Positions 60,121-62,311 of a stretch of DNA of 64,000 nucleotides are shown here, in pieces. Each line of letters starts with the position of its first letter. The first letter of the stretch is position 1. Below the pieces are notes generated by a model that did no database searches, was not told the origin of the DNA, and saw only the letters and a list, made by a program, of their open reading frames with translations. Source of the stretch: Bacteroidales bacterium (GTDB lineage Bacteria; Bacteroidota; Bacteroidia; Bacteroidales; UBA3663); contig JAFYZW010000046.1 in the NCBI GenBank assembly GCA_017548545.1, positions 1 to 64,000 on the forward strand. Direction: 5' to 3'. A program made the translations under genes and the position numbers.

Positions 60121-61365
60121 ATGAAAAAGAATGCCTTGGAAGTTGCCAGCCAGGCTGGACATATTATGCTCGAGAATGGGGCTGAGATTTCGCGAGTAGA
60201 AGAGGTTATGCAACGTATATCCGCTTGTTATGGCGTAAGTTCGAGCAACTTTTTCGTGCTTAGCAATGGCATCTTCACTACGGGTCAAGGCTATGCGAAT
60301 GTGGAGTTTATCCCGTTCCATGGCACTCAACTAGATAAGGTGGTTGCTGTCACCCAGCTCTCGCGTGACATCGAGTCGGGCAAATATACGCTTGAGGAGG
60401 CAAGTAACGAGCTTCAGCGTATTCGCACACTCCCGCCCCACCCTGCATGGGAACAGATTGCTGCATCGGCGGTCGGTTCTGCAGGATTCTGCGCCATTTT
60501 CGGTGGCGGCTTGATCGATTGTGCCATCTCCTTCTTTTCGGGCATCTTGCTTTGGTGTTTTGTACTTTTCTTCAGCGCACCAAACTTCTCAAAGGTTACT
60601 GCCAACATTTTAGGAGGAGCATTAGTCACCGTGTTCTGCATCATGGCACACCATTTGGGCATTGGTCATCTTGGCAACATCATGATTGGGGCAATTATTC
60701 CACTCATCCCTGGTGTTCCATTCACTAATGGTATCCGCGACTTGGCTGCCGAAGATTATATTGCAGGTGCTACTCGATTGCTGGATGCACTGATGGTCTT
60801 CTTGTGTATTGCCGTTGGTGTGTGTATTACCTTTCTGGTCGATAGTCATATCGAAGGAAGGATGATTGAACTACATGGCATGCTTACCGATTCATTTACA
60901 GCTAACTGGCTCTTTCAAATCGCTGCAGCCTTTTTCGGAACGGGCGCCTTTGCTGTTCTTTTCGGTGTGCCTCGTCGTTATTATGTAGCATGTGGCATCA
61001 GCGGTATGATGGGATGGATCGCCTACCTTTGTTTGACCCGCCTCGCTGGAGCCAGTGCCGTCGAGTCGACATTCTTTGCCACGATCGCAGTGGTGCTTTC
61101 GGCCTACGTCTTTGCATATCGGCTCAAGTGTCCGGTCATCGTTTTCTTGGTGTGCGGCATTTTCCCATTAGTGCCAGGTGCAGGCGTTTTCTGGACAAGT
61201 TACAATATCGTTAGCGATCAGTTGGCCGCAGCCCTGCAAAGTGGTTTTCTGGCGATGAAGATTACCGTTGCCATCGTCTTCGGCATCATCATAGTGACCG
61301 AAATTCTCAGACGTTTAAGCAAGGCCACAAAGAACAATGTTATTAATCAAGAATTAGAAAACTAG
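60121..61365 (+). CDS. Threonine/serine exporter family protein
   Basis: The 414-residue ThrE-like protein contains both halves of the family. The N-terminal soluble and helical part (MLENGAEISRVEEVMQRI) and first membrane block are followed by the ThrE_2-type block (about 260-400, VIVFLVCGIFPLVPGAGVFWTSY). About ten transmembrane segments can be seen. The conserved LIPGVPFTNGIRDLAAEDY segment is present. Relatives export threonine and serine by proton antiport. It is followed 7 bases later by the HD-MsrA gene, apparently in the same operon. Confidence 0.92.
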   Translation: MKKNALEVASQAGHIMLENGAEISRVEEVMQRISACYGVSSSNFFVLSNGIFTTGQGYANVEFIPFHGTQLDKVVAVTQLSRDIESGKYTLEEASNELQRIRTLPPHPAWEQIAASAVGSAGFCAIFGGGLIDCAISFFSGILLWCFVLFFSAPNFSKVTANILGGALVTVFCIMAHHLGIGHLGNIMIGAIIPLIPGVPFTNGIRDLAAEDYIAGATRLLDALMVFLCIAVGVCITFLVDSHIEGRMIELHGMLTDSFTANWLFQIAAAFFGTGAFAVLFGVPRRYYVACGISGMMGWIAYLCLTRLAGASAVESTFFATIAVVLSAYVFAYRLKCPVIVFLVCGIFPLVPGAGVFWTSYNIVSDQLAAALQSGFLAMKITVAIVFGIIIVTEILRRLSKATKNNVINQELEN

Positions 61366-61372
61366 AGAATCT

Positions 61373-62311
61373 ATGCATCCAATAGATATCGCGCTCAAGA
61401 TTGCTACCAATGCCCATGAAGGGCAACTTGATAGGGATGGTTATCCTGTTATACTTCATCCGCTTACCGTTGGTTTGATGGGCCACACTGACGAGGAGAA
61501 GATGGCTGGATTCCTCCATGATGTGGTCGAAGATAGCGATTATACCTTCGACGATTTATTAAGCGCGGGTATTCCTATGGGAGTGGTCAATGCCTTGCGC
61601 CTTCTCACCCACCGGAAGGACTTACCTTACTTCGAATATGTCCAAAGTATTATCGATTCGGGCAATCCCATTGCTTTACAAGTGAAATATAACGACTTGC
61701 AGCACAACTTCGCACGTGGTAAAGCTTATCCTGAACTGCAAAAGAAGCATGGCGCGGCATTGGAAATGGTTCGTAAGGCAATTGAGGATTGTTCGCGGGT
61801 GGATCTTTACGTGGTACCCGAAGACCCTGACATCGAAGTGGCTATCTTTGCTTGCGGGTGTTTTTGGGGCGTACAACAACAGTATGACAAGGAATCTGGA
61901 GTCCGACGCACTTTGGCTGGTTATACGGGAGGTTGCGAGAAGTATCCGAGCTATGCGGCCGTGCGCGACCACAAGACCCATCATGTCGAGGCGATCATCG
62001 TGGAGTACGATCCGAGGATAACGACCTATGAGAAACTATGCCAGGTGTTTTTCGAGATTCATGATCCCGCACAAACAGATGGCGTGGGTCCCGATATTGG
62101 TCCTCAATATCGTAGCTGCATATTCTATCGCAATGAAGCGCAGAAGACGACGGCCGAAAGCGTCATCCATTATCTCAGAAATCTTGGCGACGAAGTGAAC
62201 ACCCTGCTCCTCCCCGCTCAGAAATTCTACATCGGCGAGGCATACCACCAACGTTATTACGAAAAGACAGGTGGCGAACCCTATTGTCATCTTCGCGTCA
62301 AGAAGTTTTGA
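61373..62311 (+). CDS. msrA: HD-domain / peptide-methionine (S)-sulfoxide reductase fusion
   Basis: The 312-residue protein joins two domains. Residues 1-145 are a SpoT/MESH1-like HD phosphohydrolase with H15, H29, the HD pair H49-D50, E53-D54 (FLHDVVEDSDYT) and N107-D108 (VKYNDLQHN). Relatives hydrolyse (p)ppGpp or related nucleotides. Residues 155-312 are MsrA with the catalytic C163 in GCFWG and YTGG ... HVEAIIVEYDP. There is no frameshift between the halves and the linker is short, so this is a true fusion. Whether the HD half acts on ppGpp is inference. Confidence 0.9.
   Translation: MHPIDIALKIATNAHEGQLDRDGYPVILHPLTVGLMGHTDEEKMAGFLHDVVEDSDYTFDDLLSAGIPMGVVNALRLLTHRKDLPYFEYVQSIIDSGNPIALQVKYNDLQHNFARGKAYPELQKKHGAALEMVRKAIEDCSRVDLYVVPEDPDIEVAIFACGCFWGVQQQYDKESGVRRTLAGYTGGCEKYPSYAAVRDHKTHHVEAIIVEYDPRITTYEKLCQVFFEIHDPAQTDGVGPDIGPQYRSCIFYRNEAQKTTAESVIHYLRNLGDEVNTLLLPAQKFYIGEAYHQRYYEKTGGEPYCHLRVKKF

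Follow-up and report, generated by a model that had tools for sequence, protein, structure and literature searches.

The window, by which we mean the whole 64,000-nucleotide stretch of DNA that was analyzed, carries a gene in which an N-terminal HD domain is followed in frame by a methionine sulfoxide reductase A (MsrA) domain, with an exporter gene just upstream (Table 1). The initial annotation had read this gene as an HD domain and an intact MsrA within one protein, which was borne out by the single ORF and by its relatives, and the residues that it had singled out (H49-D50, E53-D54, N107-D108, and C163) were all found where it had placed them; the first metal ligand, H29, was missing from its list. 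AlphaFold2 modeled the full-length protein with confidence (pLDDT 90.3, pTM 0.84), and in this model the linker between the two domains was well ordered. Ser141 and Tyr146 of the linker, which were specific to the fusions and were each present in 29 of 30 of them, suggest that the domains may meet at a set interface rather than being joined by a loose tether.

Table 1. Positions in the window of the fusion gene, its upstream neighbor, and the domains and residues discussed in the text.
Feature	Position	Strand	Basis or conservation
ThrE-type threonine/serine exporter	60121..61365	+	PF06738, PF12821; 7 bases upstream of fusion gene
HD–MsrA fusion gene	61373..62311	+	312 aa plus stop; single uninterrupted ATG ORF
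Predicted HD domain, small-alarmone-hydrolase type	61373..61807	+	aa 1–145; 7smg match, Foldseek, tree
Asp20, replaces guanine-stacking Arg of RSH/SpoT	61430..61432	+	Alignment
Val26, replaces catalytic Tyr51 of SpoT	61448..61450	+	Alignment
His29, metal ligand	61457..61459	+	Invariant in 30/30 fusions
Met36, sole internal methionine almost invariant in fused HD	61478..61480	+	29/30 fusions
His49-Asp50, HD metal motif	61517..61522	+	Invariant in 30/30 fusions
Glu53-Asp54, catalytic acid pair	61529..61534	+	28/30 fusions; lost in L092, L094
Asp108, metal ligand	61694..61696	+	Invariant in 30/30 fusions
Inter-domain linker	61793..61837	+	aa 141–155; Ser141 and Tyr146 conserved, fusion-specific
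MsrA domain	61832..62308	+	aa 154–312; PF01625, TIGR00401
Cys163, catalytic cysteine (GCFWG)	61859..61861	+	Invariant in 28 fusions; aligns with E. coli MsrA Cys51
Cys305, putative resolving cysteine	62285..62287	+	Invariant in 28 fusions; aligns with E. coli MsrA Cys198

The same domain order was recovered elsewhere, as the initial annotation had suggested looking for, both in related genomes and in a genome-wide scan (full-length homologues L003–L010 and L066–L094). Ten of the 15 genomes in our 'genus' group, which was identical to our 'family' group and may be a loosely defined set, contained the fusion at 70–100% identity, with one copy ending at a contig edge. The scan covered GTDB-representative genomes and used motifs of the HD half only, so its outcome was independent of MsrA; it returned 30 loci (some of them in genomes of the 'genus' group), every one of which ran in frame into MsrA. 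Together, these two sets exclude an assembly artefact. One scan locus (L095) ended at a contig edge and another (L085) had unread bases and a frame break, and because the motifs were specific, more distant fusions could have been missed. By title, all 30 loci came from Bacteroidales, including Segatella copri, Leyella stercorea, Muribaculaceae, several Candidatus genera, and uncultured Bacteroidales. Within the window's order, the matches listed for 393 genomes placed the full-length fusion in the window's group only; in the family to which the S. copri genome belongs, 10 of 251 sampled genomes had it. Such genome counts are not independent, owing to relatedness. Pairwise dN/dS, where computable, was 0.03–0.13 for the HD half and 0.04–0.09 for the MsrA half. 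Both halves are under purifying selection, which for the HD half is indicated by its low ratio.

The nearest solved structure to the HD half was PDB 7smg, titled 'a (p)ppApp hydrolase from Bacteroides caccae', which it matched by sequence with an E value of 2.6e-19 and on which its predicted model superposed in Foldseek with a TMt of 0.87 and an rmsd of 1.9–2.0 Å over ~140 residues (~31% identity). The match to the RelA/SpoT model was weak (1.4e-9). Because the score against Pfam HD_4 (PF13328) was 15.8 bits, under the gathering cut-off of 27.2, annotation at the level of Pfam hides the HD domain and would display MsrA alone. In a tree that set the fused HD domains among a broad range of unfused small alarmone hydrolases (SAHs) and long RSH domains, they clustered with SAH/Aph1-type proteins, apart from long RSH (SH-aLRT 100). 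A larger tree, in which exact HD placement is approximate, put a very long RSH branch (3.8) beside the fusion group, a position that we took to be a long-branch effect. These matches and groupings identify the HD half as a predicted SAH domain of a divergent, Aph1-like kind. With Aph1 of B. caccae (7smg) and the SAH family it has in common the HD fold, the metal ligands, the ED pair, and an Asp where RSH proteins have the guanine-stacking Arg; the fusion protein differs in having MsrA, in having the Tyr51 equivalent replaced, and in carrying His111 where Aph1 has Asp. With the hydrolase domain of long RSH proteins (Rel/SpoT) it shares superfamily and metal site, but it lacks their base-pocket Arg and Tyr and falls in a separate clade; the fusion protein contains no synthetase domain, only a single hydrolase domain, but one that is joined to MsrA. 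Two characterized SAHs, those of Xanthomonas (which has no toxic partner; PMC9765508) and Methylobacterium (SAHMex, which prefers (p)ppApp; PMC7644958), are single-domain proteins without a redox-repair fusion.

The MsrA half scored above the cut-offs of both models for its family (PF01625, E = 1.2e-49, 169 bits against 23.7, aa 157–306; TIGR00401, 148.7 bits against 108.1). All of the catalytic residues of MsrA were present: Cys163, Glu206, Asp241, Tyr246, and Cys305 aligned with those of E. coli MsrA and are shared among the fusions. It differs from plain MsrA, which includes its nearest relatives of ~160–190 aa, in the N-terminal HD domain. The fusion was the sole MsrA in the window genome and in 30 of 30 fusion genomes of the scan (in G422 the fusion gene lay in two pieces), and the four 'genus' genomes that lacked the fusion had no MsrA whatever. 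MsrB (PF01641) was absent from 15 of 15 'genus' genomes and gave no match above cut-off in 30 of 30 fusion genomes; it was present in 238 of the 393 genomes of the window's order. Many of these genomes are incomplete MAGs, but gaps are unlikely to account for the absence of MsrB from every fusion genome. One fusion genome had a sub-threshold MsrB-like stretch with an internal stop (G415:C8:5654-5830, L096), possibly a remnant of MsrB.

The family to which S. copri belongs also has unfused relatives of both halves; in it, unfused MsrA proteins were 60–65% identical to the fused half, with no MsrB motif within about 2.5 kb, and unfused HD proteins were 48–62% identical to the fused HD. The fused MsrA halves formed one clade (support 100/100, and 90 in a second tree) whose sister was unfused MsrA, and the fused HD halves likewise formed one clade (97), nested among unfused HD proteins. 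The simplest reading of these trees is that two resident genes were joined once and the product then inherited. We had also considered that an HD domain replaced the MsrB of an MsrB–MsrA protein, an idea based on a match to PRK05550 and on the missing MsrB. The MsrA half and overall length do resemble those of the bifunctional proteins (PRK05550, NF004042), but the fusion has HD rather than MsrB at its N terminus, its full-length score was 192 against a cut-off of 330, and the bifunctional proteins are not its sister group; we rejected the replacement because the sister is unfused MsrA without a nearby MsrB motif.

Other MsrA fusions were encountered along the way. In the S. copri family, type-2 MsrA was fused to various partners (L171, L173–L177, L183, and L186), namely creatininase (checked with Pfam for L173 and L177), a C_GCAxxG_C_C redox protein, a DUF6016/cupin-like domain, and MsrB. 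A 552-aa ORF elsewhere (L168:2275-3933, G857:C16) combined an HD domain of SAH type with an MsrA of a different kind (type 2) and a domain for DNA-alkylation repair, and is possibly an independent HD–MsrA fusion. As convergent support we gave it little weight, as type-2 MsrA joins unrelated partners and this ORF was known from a single 4.3-kb contig. MsrA has many unrelated fusion partners in this bacterial group, so that being fused is in itself a weak argument for a shared pathway.

Conservation of the HD site among fused homologues, whose failure the initial annotation had named as a ground for refutation, was largely though not fully borne out: the metal ligands H29, H49, D50, and D108 were present in 30 of 30, and E53 and D54 in 28 of 30. 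The two exceptions, L092:4001-4939 and L094:3953-4921, sit on long branches and have degenerate HD sites (HDAVAVG and HDSILYG) in which the metal ligands are retained and the ED pair is gone, with MsrA intact; some lineages, at least, can therefore manage without HD catalysis. HD-site residues were also lost from L137, a close unfused HD relative. The window protein retains the equivalents of SpoT E82-D83 and N147, and the ED pair, metal ligands, and Asn112 are kept in 28–30 of the 30 fusions. The base pocket is another matter. At the position of SpoT R45, Asp was found in all 30 fusions, 8 of 8 close unfused relatives, and 29 of 29 other SAHs, with Arg in 18 of 18 RSH proteins. The position of SpoT Tyr51 was Tyr in 29 of 29 other SAHs but something else in 26 of 30 fusions (Val in 21, Ala in 3, Thr and Arg in 1 each, with Tyr in the remaining 4). 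The fused HD thus has its Asp in common with the Aph1-like group and departs further through loss of the Tyr, and its His111 is RSH-like rather than Aph1-like.

These substitutions bear on the substrate. In Acinetobacter baumannii SpoT, alanine at the guanine-stacking R45 abolishes hydrolysis, which also requires Y51, E82, D83, and N147 (PMC9974481), and the R44Q substitution abolishes hydrolysis by RelSeq (PMC13299517). The ppGpp specificity originally suggested for the HD half is not supported, given its grouping with SAHs (SH-aLRT 100) and the change of Arg45 to Asp20 and of Tyr51 to Val26. With both SpoT residues replaced and the ED pair lost in 2 of 30 fusions, (p)ppGpp is a poor guess, and a base pocket so unlike that of a (p)ppGpp hydrolase makes an adenine nucleotide, such as (p)ppApp, the best single guess; Asp20 may favor adenine over guanine. 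We accordingly regard (p)ppGpp as unlikely and (p)ppApp or another adenine nucleotide as likelier. Activity on some 3′-phosphorylated nucleotide seems more likely than not, (p)ppApp can be named only tentatively as the main substrate, and (p)ppGpp would be an improbable one. The substrates of known SAHs vary: SAHMex hydrolyzes (p)ppApp with negligible activity on (p)ppGpp and no activity seen on NADPH (PMC7644958), a Treponema SAH accepts both (p)ppApp and (p)ppGpp, and the Xanthomonas enzyme (XccSAH) also takes NADPH, turning it into NADH in vitro and affecting it in vivo (PMC9765508). RelA_SpoT synthetase domains were present in 31 of 31 genomes tested; the genomes have long RSH proteins, and some have short synthetase-like ORFs too. 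Besides the fusion, the window genome encodes three other RelA/SpoT-domain proteins: an RSH-like protein of 633 aa (G000:C3:334-699), whose HD domain is accompanied by a synthetase domain that matched only weakly, and two further ORFs of 744 and 651 aa.

The gene neighborhood offered little guidance. The upstream exporter had been taken to fit an amino-acid or stress theme; the amino-acid theme did not survive comparison. Only the closest relatives have ThrE upstream, and no neighbor was conserved across the 30 loci, in which neither a toxin nor any other recurring neighbor gene was found. Spread by phage or plasmid, or a role in defense, was rejected: no relative turned up on a viral contig, no plasmid record spanned 80% of the query, and PADLOC gave no match.

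The explanation that best fits the whole, to which we assign a probability of about 0.5, is that an MsrA and an Aph1-like SAH were brought together by a single joining that paired two stress-reversal activities. The C-terminal half would be a working thioredoxin-dependent methionine-S-sulfoxide reductase, probably the only one in the cell. The N-terminal half would be a metal-dependent enzyme (probably using Mn2+) that removes a 3′-linked phosphate or pyrophosphate from a nucleotide. The joining of two separate genes took place once, in an ancestor that these gut Bacteroidales share, and the fusion was retained thereafter, the most likely gain being that the two activities are co-expressed and co-located. 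We infer that both halves are enzymatically active. Against this explanation stand the frequent loss of the Tyr51 equivalent, the missing ED pair of L092 and L094, the RSH-like His111, and the many unrelated fusion partners of MsrA.

The first two of these observations would also suit an HD half that is a weak enzyme or none, and that instead binds a nucleotide or metal and has a regulatory or structural role, in which it tunes, stabilizes, or oligomerizes MsrA. We regard this as a possibility deserving some weight: L092 and L094 have lost the acid pair yet keep their metal ligands, 26 of 30 fusions have lost the Tyr, and the conserved, ordered linker suggests a fixed interface. A purely structural domain, however, would have no need of the acid pair that nearly all fusions keep alongside the metal ligands and Asn112, and the strong purifying selection on the HD half extends across diverged species. 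It is also possible, if rather doubtful, that the fusion arose merely because the genes were adjacent, and that each half works alone with no joint function. MsrA is joined as well to MsrB, creatininase, C_GCAxxG redox, cupin-like, and DNA-alkylation-repair partners, SAH domains are joined to a nucleotidase or a short helical tail, and unfused relatives of both halves exist; but no re-split member was seen, the fusions form one clade in both trees and span many genera, and the linker is conserved.

Two further readings give the HD half a different substrate. MsrA depends on NADPH through thioredoxin, so an HD half that acts on NADPH or on 3′-phosphoadenosine-5′-phosphate could bear on the supply of reductant to MsrA or on a side product of sulfur metabolism. 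The NADPH activity of XccSAH and the preference for adenine that Asp20 may confer fit this reading, but on NADPH the efficiency of XccSAH is ~40 times below that of Mesh1 (PMC9765508), SAHMex showed no activity on it, nothing in the fusion hints at a nicotinamide site, and consumption of NADPH would work against MsrA; we find the reading unlikely. Less likely still is an HD half that hydrolyzes (p)ppGpp and so ties oxidative repair to the stringent response. Membership of the superfamily that includes the HD domains of SpoT and RelA is in its favor, as is the acceptance of both bases by XccSAH (PMC9765508) and Mesh1 (PMC7644958), and against it are the replacement of the essential Arg45 and Tyr51 of SpoT (PMC9974481), with Asp20 universal in the group, the three other RelA/SpoT-domain proteins in the genome, and the unconserved linkage to the exporter. 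More broadly, the coupling between alarmones and oxidative damage that the initial annotation had proposed is unsupported by the sequence evidence; MsrA has many different partners in this group, and the link to oxidative repair is so far a physical one. A more specific coupling would involve Met36, whose equivalent is methionine in 4 of 8 close unfused relatives and 5 of 29 other SAHs: oxidation of Met36 might alter how the HD domain hydrolyzes an adenine alarmone, and the MsrA tethered to it might undo that oxidation, which would make the protein a self-repairing redox switch. We consider this a long shot; if it were true, methionine oxidation would directly set nucleotide signaling in major gut commensals.

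An SAH-type domain is fixed to the sole MsrA of Segatella copri and other abundant gut anaerobes. To our knowledge, few physiological roles are known for bacterial SAHs outside toxin–antitoxin loci, and we know of no established regulatory role for (p)ppApp. A fusion that is conserved across genera without a conserved toxin neighbor therefore offers a tractable place to ask what an SAH does in normal physiology. The architecture, built of two known families and widespread, is apparently undescribed: our literature search returned no paper containing both 'alarmone hydrolase' and 'methionine sulfoxide reductase', and Atkinson 2011 makes no mention of methionine or sulfoxide.

Two other arrangements of SAH-type HD domains were noted. 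At L139–L146 the HD domain carries a conserved C-terminal tail that is small and helix-turn-helix-like (PWT.EDD...L...GAI.SRIKKL); the tail of L145, the only one of these scanned, had no Pfam match. At L148:2665-3852 and L150:2815-3849 an SAH-type HD domain is fused to a 5′-nucleotidase (NT5C, PF06941), which suggests a nucleotide pathway for such HD domains, and L150 has a further HD gene, itself unfused, immediately upstream.
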